DNA from: Variovorax paradoxus
Lineage (GTDB): Bacteria > Pseudomonadota > Gammaproteobacteria > Burkholderiales > Burkholderiaceae_C
Reading direction: 5' to 3'
NCBI RefSeq assembly: GCF_024734665.1
Contig: NZ_CP102931.1
Span: forward strand, 62,001-126,000
Length of the DNA: 64,000 nucleotides
Below, in pieces: positions 16,554 through 50,820 of the stretch; positions within the stretch are counted from its first letter, which is position 1; the number at the start of each line of letters is the position of its first letter. The translations under genes and the position numbers were made by a program. A model generated the notes under the pieces. It worked only from the letters and a program-made list of their open reading frames with translations, ran no database searches and had not been told where the DNA came from.

Positions 16554-16804
16554 CGGGGTGCGTGCGAATGACACCGGGTACTCCCCTCCGCGAATGTCCC
16601 CCGGCCTTTGGCCTCCTCCTTTATTTCGCTGCGAGGAGCACCCGGTGCCATTCGCACATGGGCGCTGCCGTTGTGCTGGCCGATCAACAACTGCTCTGAA
16701 CGATCACGCCGATGGGGTGCCTTGCGCAGCGAAATAAAGGAGGAGGCCGAAGGCCGGGGGACATTCGCGGAGCAAGGTACCCCGTCGGCGTGATCGTGCC
16801 CCCG
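16554..16804 (+). repeat. Composite palindromic element, copy 1 (full length)
   Basis: 251-bp element made of two hairpin halves and a 43-bp spacer. Half A: arms 16562-16588 and 16633-16657 match imperfectly as inverted repeats and enclose a 44-bp core (16589-16632). Half B: arms 16701-16725 and 16772-16796 (23 of 25 positions complementary) enclose the same core in inverted orientation with one base changed. A and B arms are unrelated to each other. The core contains GCGAATGTCCCCC, a small GGCC-loop-GGCC hairpin and CTCCTCCTTTATTTCGC. It ends directly at the stop codon of the next gene. Other copies are at 20309, 43942 and 50570. Confidence 0.9.
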
Positions 16805-17947
16805 TCAAGAACTCTTTCGGCCCGCAACACCCTTGTTCGGATTCAACAAGAACTTCTCACCAGTAGCCTGCTTCCCATAAACACCAATCGCATCGAGCTG
16901 CAGCGCCTCGACCAGCGACACCTCACGCGTGTAGTGGCTGGCAAACGTAGTCTTCAGTTCCGCAACGACACGCGCCTTCAAACGCTGCGTGCCGGCATCG
17001 CCGAGCTTCCCGAGGAACGGGAACAGCAGCCACCCGCCCATGCCCCATGCCATGCCGAAGTTGCGCACGAACTCCGTGGGAGCGCGGTCGAGGCCGCCGT
17101 AGATGTACACCTGCTTGTGCGTGGTCGAGCCGTAGCGGCTGTATTCCTTGGCCGTGCGGTTGATGGCCGCTTCCATGCAGCCGAGGATCTGCCCTGCGAG
17201 CTTGCCGCCGCCGGTGGCGTCGAAGGCCAGCGTAGCGCCGGTCTCGACCAGCGCCTGCGTCAGGTCTTCGAGAAAGGTGGGTGAGGTCGCGTTGCACACG
17301 TACTTCGCGCCCAGGCCGCGCAGCAGGTCTTCCTGCTCCTGCTTGCGCACGATGTTGACGAGGGCGATGCCGTCCTTCTGGCAGATCTTGTTGAGCATCT
17401 GGCCGAGGTTGGATGCTGCGGCCGTGTGCACCAGCGCCTTGTGGCCTTCCATGCGCATCGTCTCGACCATGCTGAGCGACGTGAGCGGGTTGACGAAGCA
17501 CGAGGCGCCTTCGGCCGGCTTGGTGCCGTCCGGCAGTTCCAGGCACTGCGCGGCGGCAAGGCAGCGGTACTGCGAGTACATCGCGCCGCCGATGGCTGCC
17601 ACGGTCTTGCCGAGCAGCGCCTGCGCGGCCGGCGACGATCCGGCTTTCACCACCACGCCCGCGCCTTCGTTGCCGACCGGCATCGACTGGTCGAGCCGCG
17701 CCGCCATCGCGGGAAGCACGCGCTCGGGCACGGTGGCGGTGACGACGGGGCGCTCGGCCGTGCCCGAAGCCTTGGCGGTGCTCATGTCGGCTGCGCCGAA
17801 CAGCAGGCCCAGGTCCGACGGGTTCAGGGGCGACGCCTCGACGCGGATCACCACTTCGTGGGCCTGCGGTTCGGGAATCGGGTCGTCGTGCAGCGAGAGT
17901 TCGAGTTCGCCGCTGGCGCGAATGAGGGAGCGGATTTGCAGTGCCAT
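16805..17947 (-). CDS. Zinc-binding/MDR-family dehydrogenase
   Basis: Medium-chain dehydrogenase/reductase of 380 residues, with a GroES-like N-terminal half (ASPLNPSDLGLLFG, VGNEGAGVVVKAG at about 90-105) and a nucleotide-binding half (TAAASNLGQMLNKICQKDG, DATGGGKLAGQIL). The usual zinc cysteines are not evident, so a quinone-reductase-like, zinc-free enzyme is more likely. An insert with Gly/Trp-rich GMAWGMGGWLLFPFLGKLG near residue 320 is characteristic of its subgroup. The stop codon abuts repeat copy 1. Stands alone. Confidence 0.82.
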   Translation of the reverse strand: MALQIRSLIRASGELELSLHDDPIPEPQAHEVVIRVEASPLNPSDLGLLFGAADMSTAKASGTAERPVVTATVPERVLPAMAARLDQSMPVGNEGAGVVVKAGSSPAAQALLGKTVAAIGGAMYSQYRCLAAAQCLELPDGTKPAEGASCFVNPLTSLSMVETMRMEGHKALVHTAAASNLGQMLNKICQKDGIALVNIVRKQEQEDLLRGLGAKYVCNATSPTFLEDLTQALVETGATLAFDATGGGKLAGQILGCMEAAINRTAKEYSRYGSTTHKQVYIYGGLDRAPTEFVRNFGMAWGMGGWLLFPFLGKLGDAGTQRLKARVVAELKTTFASHYTREVSLVEALQLDAIGVYGKQATGEKFLLNPNKGVAGRKSS

Positions 17948-18034
17948 GGAAGAGCCCTTTTCAGAAGGTTCGCAGATGGCCTGTGGCCACGGGGCGGCCA
18001 GTATAGGAGCGGGGTACGAAAGGCGCTGGCGCCT

Positions 18035-18610
18035 TCAGGACACTATGGGCACCACCGGGGCATGGGCCAGCGCATGGCGCATCTTCACCGGGTCGAGCCT
18101 CTCGATGTAGCGCGGAATGTTGCGCCATAGCGTGTGATAACCGTAGCCGCCGCGCAGCATCTCGTGGCGCGCGCTGTCCTTGTCCCAGTCTTGTACCGCC
18201 ATGCGATACACCGCCGCGACCACGCCGGTGCGGTCGGCGCCATGCATGCAGTGGATGAGCACCGGGCCGTGCTTCTCGGCCTCGCGAATGGCGAGCAGCG
18301 CGCGCAGCACCTTGGCGTCGTCGATGGACCAGGTGTTGATCGGCACGCGCACCAGCCGGATGCCGCTGCCCGCGAAGACCTTCCTGTCGTCGTTGAAGGA
18401 GCGCAGGCTCACCACCGTGTGGATGCCCAGCGATTGCAGCGCCGCCATGTTGGCGCGCCGCGGCTGCGCGCTGCGGTACAGCGTAGGCGTGATGCGGTGC
18501 AGGTTCTCGACTTGCAATGCGTCCAGCGGATCGGCCCAGTGGCCGGGGCGCGGGTCGGCTATGCCTTCTTCTAGCGCCGCTGCTGCCTTGTGTTTCGTTT
18601 TCTTCGTCAT
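18035..18610 (-). CDS. Tyrosine/dual-specificity phosphatase-like protein
   Basis: 191 residues with the cysteine phosphatase signature HCMHGADRTG: catalytic Cys121 and Arg127 of the CX5R loop, preceded by VVSLR and a general-acid region. Resembles the DSP/Siw14-like group. ATG overlaps the stop of the preceding membrane protein gene (ATGA), making it the last gene of a three-gene coupled operon with a lipid-type glycosyltransferase; a role in removing phosphate from a lipid or sugar phosphate is plausible but inferred. Confidence 0.82.
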   Translation of the reverse strand: MTKKTKHKAAAALEEGIADPRPGHWADPLDALQVENLHRITPTLYRSAQPRRANMAALQSLGIHTVVSLRSFNDDRKVFAGSGIRLVRVPINTWSIDDAKVLRALLAIREAEKHGPVLIHCMHGADRTGVVAAVYRMAVQDWDKDSARHEMLRGGYGYHTLWRNIPRYIERLDPVKMRHALAHAPVVPIVS

Positions 18611-49411: not shown

Positions 49412-50536
49412 ATCGTCCAGCGGCAGGAAGGCATCGCCCGGCGTGAGTGGCGCATGCCGGTAGCTTGCCGGCGTGCGGCTCAGCTTCACCGGCGCGCCGA
49501 TGCCGCGATAGCCGCCGGGCATCTCCACCACCATCTCGCGGTGCAGCGTGTGCGGATGCTGCAACGCGGCATCGACCGGCAGCACTGGCGCGGCGGGCAC
49601 GCCGGCCGCCATCAGTTGCTCGACCAGCGCGCGGCCGTCGAAGGCGGCCATTGCCGCCTCGAGCTGCTGCTTGAGCCCGTCGCGGTGCACCGAGCGCGCG
49701 CCGGCCGTGCGGTAGAGCGGGTCGTCCGCCAGGTCGGGCAGCCCGATGCAGCGGCACAGGCTGGCGAACTGCCGGTCGTTGCCCACGGCCACGAACACCG
49801 GGGCGGTGCCGGTGGCCAGCGCGTCGTACGGATAGATGTTCGGATGCGCATTGCCGGTGCGGCGCGGCTCGGTGCCGTCCATGAACCAGTTGGCCGCGTG
49901 CGGATGCAGCAGCGACAGGCCGCTGTCGTACAGCGCCGCCTCCACGAACTGCCCGCGCCCGCTGCGCTGGCGCTCTTGCAGCGCGAGCAGCACGCCGATG
50001 ACCGCGTTGAGCCCGGTCACCATGTCGACCACCGGCAGGCCCACGCGCAGCGGACCGCCATCGGCCTCGCCGTTGATGCTCATGATGCCGGTCATGGCCT
50101 GCACGGCGGCGTCGTAGCCCGGCAGCGCGCCCAATGGTCCGTCGGCACCGAAGCCCGACACGCGGCACCACACGAGGCGCGGAAAGCGCTGCGACAGCGC
50201 CTCGTAGCCGATGCCCCAGCGTTCCATCGTGCCGGTCTTGAAGTTCTCGATCAGCACGTCGGCCTCGGCCACCAGCGCGAGCAGTGCAGTGCGGCCTTCT
50301 TCCGTCGAAAAGTCGAGGTGCTGCACGCGCTTGTTGCGATTGAGCCCGTGGTAGTACGAGGCCACGCCTTCCCTGAAAGGCGGGCCCCAGGTGCGCGTGT
50401 CGTCGCCCTGCGGCGGCTCGACCTTGAGCACGTCGGCTCCATGGTCGCCGAGGATCTGACCGCAGTAGGGGCCGCCGAGGATGCGGGAGATGTCTAGGAC
50501 TCGGATGCCTGCGAGGGCGCCTTGGGCTTGTGTCAT
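49397..50536 (-). CDS. Class III CoA-transferase (CaiB/BaiF family)
   Basis: 379 residues. Family signatures DISRILGGPYCGQILGDHGADVLKVE, YYHGLNRNKR, and the catalytic Asp in GLPVVDMVTGLNAV. Transfers CoA between carboxylic acids. Separated from the Bug receptor gene by repeat copy 4; a Bug receptor, CoA-transferase and acyl-CoA dehydrogenase on one strand suggest uptake and activation of a carboxylic acid. Confidence 0.9.
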   Translation of the reverse strand: MTQAQGALAGIRVLDISRILGGPYCGQILGDHGADVLKVEPPQGDDTRTWGPPFREGVASYYHGLNRNKRVQHLDFSTEEGRTALLALVAEADVLIENFKTGTMERWGIGYEALSQRFPRLVWCRVSGFGADGPLGALPGYDAAVQAMTGIMSINGEADGGPLRVGLPVVDMVTGLNAVIGVLLALQERQRSGRGQFVEAALYDSGLSLLHPHAANWFMDGTEPRRTGNAHPNIYPYDALATGTAPVFVAVGNDRQFASLCRCIGLPDLADDPLYRTAGARSVHRDGLKQQLEAAMAAFDGRALVEQLMAAGVPAAPVLPVDAALQHPHTLHREMVVEMPGGYRGIGAPVKLSRTPASYRHAPLTPGDAFLPLDDSMEQ

Positions 50537-50569
50537 TTCTGGTCCTTGGATTTATTTTGTTCGTTCATT

Positions 50570-50820
50570 CGGGGTGCGTGCGAATGACACCGGGTACTCC
50601 CCTCCGCGAATGTCCCCCGCCTTCGGCTCCTCCTTTATTTCGCTGCGGGGAGCACCCGGTGCCATTCGCACATGGACGCTGCCGTTGTGTTGGCCGATCA
50701 ACGACCGCACCGTCCAACGATCACGTCGATGGGGTGCCTTGCGCAGCGAAATAAAGGAGGAGGCCGCAGGCCGGGGGACATTCGCGGAGCAAGGCACCCC
50801 GTCGGCGTGAGCGCGCCCCG
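50570..50820 (+). repeat. Composite palindromic element, copy 4 (full length)
   Basis: 251 bp, same orientation and length as copy 1 (A half, spacer, B half). The A-half core hairpin has the same paired one-base loss as copy 2. The spacer has diverged more than the hairpins. It fills the gap between the CoA-transferase start and the Bug receptor stop. Confidence 0.9.

Follow-up and report, generated by a model that had tools for sequence, protein, structure and literature searches.

A palindromic repeat family of Variovorax that is probably tolerated within operons because translation passes through it

Here we analyzed a window of 64,000 nucleotides from Variovorax paradoxus (bases 62001-126000 in a genome assembled as a single contig of 7.29 Mb), in which a palindromic repeat of about 250 bp occurs as three full elements and one remnant (Table 1). 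The first-pass annotation of this DNA had counted four copies, two in each orientation, with the same core carried by two hairpins (A and B) and inverted in the second, and all of this was borne out. It had also placed every copy between genes, which needs refinement for copy 4. This copy sits within a 94-codon open reading frame (ORF) that starts at the stop codon of the upstream gene. Such a pass-through reading frame, and a rule for how the element is oriented relative to transcription, were absent from that annotation and are new here. Compared across genomes, the repeats appear to form a miniature inverted-repeat transposable element (MITE)-like family of Variovorax and its relatives, and operons probably tolerate this family because ribosomes translate through it.

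The ORF of copy 4 ends with a TAA 15 nt ahead of the ATG of the next gene (position 50536), beyond the distance counted as coupled in the analysis below. Copies 1 and 2 have no coupled in-frame ORF, and in copy 2 a stop codon interrupts the pass-through frame (frame 0). Copy 3 is a fusion of parts of the two hairpins, and a join like it is also found in another genome at a different locus (L183; comparison by eye).

Each half of the element is a hairpin of about 100 nt, and most copies read have terminal inverted repeats of the form TTCRGGGYGCG...CGCRCCCYGAA, with variable outer tails on many of them. The arms of the two hairpins had been described as unrelated, which overstates the difference. 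In copy 1, two 71-nt stretches, one per hairpin, are 86% complementary, and the match between an element and its reverse complement is about 70-77%. GGGYGCG on the outside and GGGTAC on the inside are also kept in register in both arms (by eye). The hairpins thus look like one unit present in two inverted, diverged copies rather than a core that moved into two arm pairs, as had been proposed, and because they are inverted relatives, the shared inverted core is best regarded as the best-kept part of an inverted duplication. Paired changes, scored in hairpin A only, are present in its arms (for example, G-C 54/T-A 14, C-G 43/A-T 15, and A-T 37/G-C 18 among 68 distinct arm pairs). The paired losses at the hairpin tips, taken earlier as a sign of selection on structure, do exist, but among 135 copies hairpin A has a tip of variable length (20-28 nt), and the hairpin B tip is near constant (of the 132 copies measured, 130 have 24 nt). 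In copy 4, the hairpin A tip is 2 nt shorter than the hairpin B tip (by eye). The predicted fold of the copy 4 mRNA strand has an energy of -165.6 kcal/mol (z -10), and the B core pairs with the A core in the predicted minimum. Seven of ten solo copies (L056, L057, L058, L070, L071, L074, L075) still carry the tip that belongs to the absent side, which is what the loss of hairpins from a single unit would produce; the other three do not (L060, L072, L073; all by eye). Four loci searched against Rfam had no match, even at E up to 1. Outside the inverted repeats of L103, L090, and some other copies from genomes G004 and G011, there are 15-bp tandem or near-tandem units like TTCAGGGCGCTGYTG (by eye), the length of which is a multiple of three.

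The first-pass annotation had called for a search of the whole genome and of other Burkholderiales. The core 20-mer, with up to two mismatches, matches the 7.29 Mb genome 65 times, versus zero for a reversed-pattern control. A 251-bp query gave 25 full-length matches, and chance does not explain these numbers. Among the shorter matches, at least 17 were read as partial or split copies. The exact core 17-mer is present in 26 of 61 sampled genomes, all of them Variovorax (26 of 37), at 0-144 sites per genome, and in none of the 24 sampled genomes from other genera of the same order. Named relatives of the element come from Variovorax, from Pseudorhodoferax, where the copies are diverged, and from one Rhodoferax metagenome-assembled genome. 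The scan of named collections used a pattern loop one base too long, and its six matches are variants, not a census.

A comparison of empty sites had been called for as well, and we made it at four operon junctions, each represented by its 30 best-scoring loci: sucCD-like, livH-livM, livF-like, and potB-potC-like (from 100, 61, 61, and 62 genomes, respectively; the gene names are our reading of the translations). The sucCD-like junction holds an about full-length element at 15 loci and a partial one at two, and is empty at 13. At livH-livM, two loci are filled, 27 are tight (mostly ATGA), and one has an 88-nt spacer. The livF-like junction has 14 full and four partial elements, nine empty loci, one other insert (L191), one relic (L192), and one unassessed locus, while potB-potC-like has 11 full, one partial, 14 empty, three other inserts (L389, L391, L398), and one unassessed. 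Empty junctions are mostly stop/start overlaps or near-overlaps (TGAGATG, TGATG, ATGA, TGACATG), although seven of the sucCD-like ones measure 34-43 nt. Filled junctions have a start codon on both flanks in most cases. At some sites the flanks share ATG or GTG, sometimes ATGA or TGAGC (by eye). No target-site duplication of constant length was seen by eye at the four junctions, and some sites would fit the duplication of a few bases at the start codon (for example, GTGAGCT/ATGAGCC at L369). The filled and empty sites show discrete insertion at all four junctions. Together with the many dispersed copies and with larger islands that carry the same two hairpins (see below), they bear out the suggestion of a mobile or non-autonomous element.

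Orientation was scored in 135 full elements from 16 genomes (25 from our own genome, 30 from G004 and G011, and 80 from 13 more), with flanking genes called by us from the GC content per codon position. These elements were chosen from best-matching hits rather than at random, and the copies share ancestry. With the element read B-then-A, 104 lie between codirectional genes in the same sense (here, operonic copies), 22 between convergent genes, nine between codirectional genes in the reversed sense, and none between divergent genes. In the operonic copies, hairpin B adjoins the upstream stop codon. Ordinary neighbors in 464 kb of the same genome are codirectional in 187 cases, convergent in 75, and divergent in 73; therefore, the element avoids divergent spacers and obeys the direction of transcription. 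Two copies are unusual. L219 is classed as convergent yet carries a tail typical of operonic copies, and L229, a reversed copy, has the stop-side tail on its A side and a 119-codon ORF through the element. The latter looks like an in-place inversion between the hairpins.

Table 1 Copies of the repeat in the window, features of copy 4, and islands bounded by the same hairpins.
Feature	Location	Strand	Context
Copy 1, full element, A-forward	16552..16806	+	between convergent genes 14480-16498 (+) and 16805-17947 (-)
Copy 2, full element, A-forward	20308..20558	-	codirectional - genes, rare reversed orientation
Copy 3, remnant	43942..44011	-	hairpin B 5' arm fused to hairpin A 3' part
Copy 4, full element, A-forward	50568..50823	+	codirectional - genes, preferred orientation
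Coupled ORF through copy 4, 94 codons	50552..50836	-	ATG overlaps upstream gene TGA (50836-50838)
Hairpin B of copy 4, first in mRNA	50716..50819	-	core strand pyrimidine-rich
Hairpin A of copy 4, second in mRNA	50578..50671	-	core strand AAUAAAGGAGGAG (by eye)
Island	L068:1418-4323		own genome
Island	L069:1127-7068		own genome
Island, hairpin B not found	L308:15576-19004		own genome
Further islands with the same A and B hairpin ends, 2-8 kb	L339, L342, L343, L345, L347		

The operonic copies are typically entered by a reading frame that begins at the upstream stop codon. An ATG within -4 to +8 of that stop, which we count as coupled, is found at 76 of the 104 operonic copies, 2 of the 22 convergent copies, and 12 of 50 codirectional spacers that lack the element. 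Of the 76 ATGs at operonic copies, 68 stand in one frame relative to the core, at many different distances (51-107 nt, with four outliers near 400). When GTG and TTG are included, a coupled in-frame start is present at 84/104 operonic and 6/22 convergent copies. Nearly all of the resulting ORFs (79/84) pass hairpin A, and 50/84 stop at an ATG in the downstream gene's frame, versus 33/168 in the two other frames. Counted by locus, as defined by the upstream gene, at least one copy has a coupled in-frame start at 46 of 54 loci and a coupled stop at 36 of 54. No stop interrupts this frame anywhere in the element in 96/104 operonic copies; the other two frames are open in 12/104 and 11/104. As a background, bridges of this kind span 2 of the 50 element-free codirectional pairs in the 464 kb, and these two are probably whole genes given their lengths of 198 and 342 codons. 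A smaller first background gave no bridge in 13 element-free pairs. The 464 kb also contain two element-bearing pairs, neither with a bridge by the same criterion.

Orthologous insertions behave in the same way. In a strict count of the 35 full copies assessed, out of 42, at the four junctions, where the ORF had to end no more than 12 nt from the downstream start, 34 have a coupled start, 31 have it in frame, and 27 are in frame and end near the downstream start. For the sucCD-like junction these numbers are 14 of 15, 11, and 10. The 12 of 14 livF-like copies assessed are all in frame, ten ending near the downstream start, and so are the six of 11 assessed at potB-potC-like, five ending there. 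Both livH-livM copies are coupled, in frame, and end near the downstream start. Across these orthologues, the distance from start to core ranges from 53 to 98 nt. At L117 and L177, the bridge ORF has no stop and continues in frame into the downstream gene as a fusion.

Bridging is not confined to this element. Four inserts of at least two other kinds (L191; L398; L389 and L391, which are alike) bridge the livF-like and potB-potC-like junctions with ORFs of 58, 50, 27, and 27 codons, respectively, the ends of which lie at -4 or +1 relative to the next ATG. These inserts look palindromic by eye. The relic L192 has no bridge. The seven longer spacers among the 13 empty sucCD-like junctions all keep a bridge of 16-19 codons with the same stop, differing in 3-nt steps, and in the other six the stop and start are neighbors 0-1 nt apart. 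Bridging by other kinds of insert is the strongest hint of a general rule, though the set is small.

We next considered whether the openness of the frame or the peptide it encodes is maintained. In-frame stops in the variable linker between the hairpins were compared with column shuffles within each linker-length group, with all gene contexts pooled. Stops are depleted in group 99 (2 of 28 copies, 8.8 expected), group 100 (0 of 18, 3.4 expected), and group 103 (2 of 66, 11.2 expected). The other two frames of the linker have no stop deficit in these three groups. The three codon positions of the linker vary to about the same degree, so there is no codon-position signal, and the second half of the element is read in different frames among copies. 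Since linker stops are depleted yet a codon-position signal is lacking, openness rather than the peptide seems to be selected.

Insertions into operons are usually expected to be polar. The copies themselves, the filled and empty sites, the orientation, the kept frame, the depleted stops, and the flat codon signal of the linker are all properties of the sequence, and from these the translation of the insert and its benefit against polarity are inferred. The element, probably moved by an enzyme supplied in trans, sits at the stop/start junctions of operons, nearly always with hairpin B after the upstream stop. It usually forms a bridge ORF there, which begins with an ATG or GTG overlapping or adjoining that stop, meets no stop codon in the two hairpins or the linker, and in many cases ends at the next start. 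A terminating ribosome would most likely re-initiate at the coupled start, translate the insert, and re-initiate again on the next gene. Translational coupling would persist in this way, and a stretch of bare mRNA that invites Rho-dependent polarity would be avoided.

Several observations weigh against this account. The frame is also open in 20/22 convergent and 8/9 reversed copies, and openness may thus come from the source copy rather than from local upkeep. There is no coupled in-frame start at 20/104 operonic copies, and 34/84 ORFs do not end at a recognized downstream ATG. At the sucCD-like junction, L113, L121, and L122 have a coupled ATG out of frame, and L120 has none. Among the three full copies in the window, only copy 4 has the ORF, and its stop lies outside the coupled distance. 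P values from this set are too small, because the copies are best-matching hits that share ancestry. A cruder gene call on the first 55 copies gave a less strict orientation (38 same-sense, nine convergent, six reversed, and two divergent). Linker group 102 has no stop depletion (3 of 11 versus 1.7 expected), and in the hairpin B arms variability increases toward codon position 3, in operonic copies much as in the rest. Target duplication could also have produced the coupled ATG as a by-product. Finally, no transposase was found for the element, either among 19 island ORFs by Pfam or through linkage to a Y1 transposase-like gene at 30 loci.

Four other explanations were weighed. An mRNA hairpin that protects, cleaves, or attenuates operon transcripts, with the ORF secondary, would have precedents, as the literature passages available to us report such roles for BIME, ERIC, and Correia elements. 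The stability of the copy 4 fold, the paired changes in the hairpin A arms, and the strict orientation relative to transcription would all suit such a role. However, it leaves the kept frame, the depleted stops, and the bridging by other inserts unexplained, and arm covariation could also result from hairpin-templated copying. We regard this explanation as unlikely. A target preference alone, in which the mobilizer inserts at start codons and duplicates the ATG while GC-richness keeps the ORF open, is less likely again. It would account for the start codons on both sides of many insertions, for the ATG, ATGA, and TGAGC shared by flanks at some sites (by eye), and for the lack of an ATG at most convergent copies. 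It fits poorly with the other two frames, which are so rarely open, with a frame that is kept although start-to-core distances vary, orthologues included, and with stop depletion that is confined to the ORF frame.

It is improbable that the ORF encodes a functional small protein, which would make the repeat a family of dispersed small genes translated along with their neighbors. The frame is kept, 21 database proteins match (including annotated hypothetical proteins of V. paradoxus B4), and the hairpin B arms vary more at codon position 3. On the other hand, that pattern in the arms is the same in non-operonic copies, variability of the linker is flat, the second half changes frame among copies, the bridge peptides of the other insert kinds are quite different, and the 21 matching proteins have no listed Pfam domain.

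A REP/REPIN-type repeat, mobilized by a Y1 transposase like that of the REP-associated tyrosine transposases (RAYTs), has a similarly slim chance: each unit has two inverted hairpins and a Y1-like gene is present in 59 of 62 genomes, but that gene also occurs in genomes with zero exact core matches, none of 30 Y1 loci holds an element within 1.5 kb on either side, and hairpins of about 100 nt far exceed the 20-40 bp given for REPs in the source passages. Those passages describe REP/REPIN units as short hairpins with a GTAG/CGTC-type tetranucleotide tag. The link to a RAYT gene that the first-pass annotation had proposed to look for was accordingly not found, whether as linkage or as co-occurrence. 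Because it is present as one copy in 58 of the 59 genomes, the Y1-like gene appears to be conserved and single-copy, not an active insertion sequence. It occurs irrespective of the copy number of the element, and as a mobilizer it was rejected, being unlinked within 1.5 kb and present where elements are not. At L282 it adjoins what we take to be a glutamate-synthase-like gene.

The element resembles MITEs in being short and transposase-free, with terminal inverted repeats and with filled and empty orthologous sites. Ends shared with a transposase-bearing autonomous element were not found among the islands (19 ORFs, Pfam). We file the family as MITE-like only, since neither an autonomous partner nor a fixed target duplication was found.

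Translated or translatable repeats are known, so that the kind is not new. One close system by description is YPAL/RU-2 of Yersinia, a mobile palindrome of about 168 bp with filled and empty sites, internal inverted repeats, and an ORF, which is said to be co-translated with upstream genes (PMC2229807). The Variovorax element differs in having two hairpins and about 250 bp, and the cited passages on YPAL/RU-2 do not describe stop-to-start bridging, frame locking, or an orientation rule. Rickettsia palindromic elements and the enterobacterial RU-1/2/3 are likewise mobile palindromes with translatable open frames. In the passages on these, however, the frames are fused to protein genes, whereas the Variovorax frame spans an intergenic gap and starts and stops at the junctions. 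BOX of Streptococcus pneumoniae is an ORF-encoding repeat that may be transcribed with adjacent operons; the passages available describe ORFs on both strands, no good Shine-Dalgarno candidates, and no stop/start coupling (PMC3049150). No translational mechanism is described for the Chunjie MITE of Geobacter in the review passage that covers it. REP/BIME sequences with RAYT are also inverted, intergenic palindromes in many copies, and by the passages of that source (PMC2817692) the Variovorax hairpins differ in being far longer, in lacking Y1 linkage, and in the translation feature. Among the titles and passages retrieved from the open-access literature, none describes this repeat in Variovorax or a repeat that spans an intergenic gap in a locked frame, its start and stop both coupled.

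The hairpins also bound larger islands. At three loci of our own genome, hairpin A is followed by 2.4-5.4 kb of other genes and a conserved region of about 300 bp, with hairpin B next in two of them. Of 101 genomes, 28 match the 300-bp region strongly (E below 1e-80), and 36 do so when any match with E up to 0.001 is counted. The 28 loci with strong matches (L309-L336) include 21 in which hairpin B adjoins this region, and when ten B ends were taken with about 9 kb, five had a correctly oriented hairpin A 2-8 kb away. Near the B end of the islands, the 300-bp region sits beside a small ORF (MATKTIARPRTP...). The cargo is variable. In PADLOC, four of the ten island proteins in the set had hits, and the assignments were PD-Lambda-5 A and B in L345, PDC-S46 in L308, and, weakly, PD-T7-3 in L068. 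Of 19 island ORFs, a set that does not include those of L342 and L347, none was a transposase by Pfam. The bridge rule is inapplicable to L068 and L069 because hairpin A, rather than hairpin B, follows the upstream stop.

The islands and the other inserts raise a broader possibility, to which we give slightly less than an even chance. Continuity of translation may act as a general filter, such that palindromic inserts of different kinds in Variovorax persist at stop/start junctions mainly in the orientation and frame that form a bridge. As the same hairpin ends bound islands with partly phage-defense cargo, one mobile system would yield both short operon-compatible copies and cargo carriers. 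If translation does pass through the element, mobile DNA could live inside operons by keeping the ribosome moving, some orphan "hypothetical proteins" would be bridges rather than products, and a repeat family would be tied to islands carrying anti-phage genes. The long-standing question of the extent to which translational coupling and Rho polarity shape operon spacers would also become testable with dozens of natural inserts that differ in length, sequence, and frame.

Beyond the chromosomes, a plasmid collection contains the element on three large Variovorax replicons only, at 14 places, and the phage records searched gave no match. A replication-strand rule for the element was rejected, as strands are mixed on both chromosome arms (by eye). 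The matches listed for G011 leave no gap comparable to that of contig G000:C1, where a stretch of 1.66 Mb (2.67-4.33 Mb) has no core matches, spans the switch in GC skew, and is apparently the terminus region.

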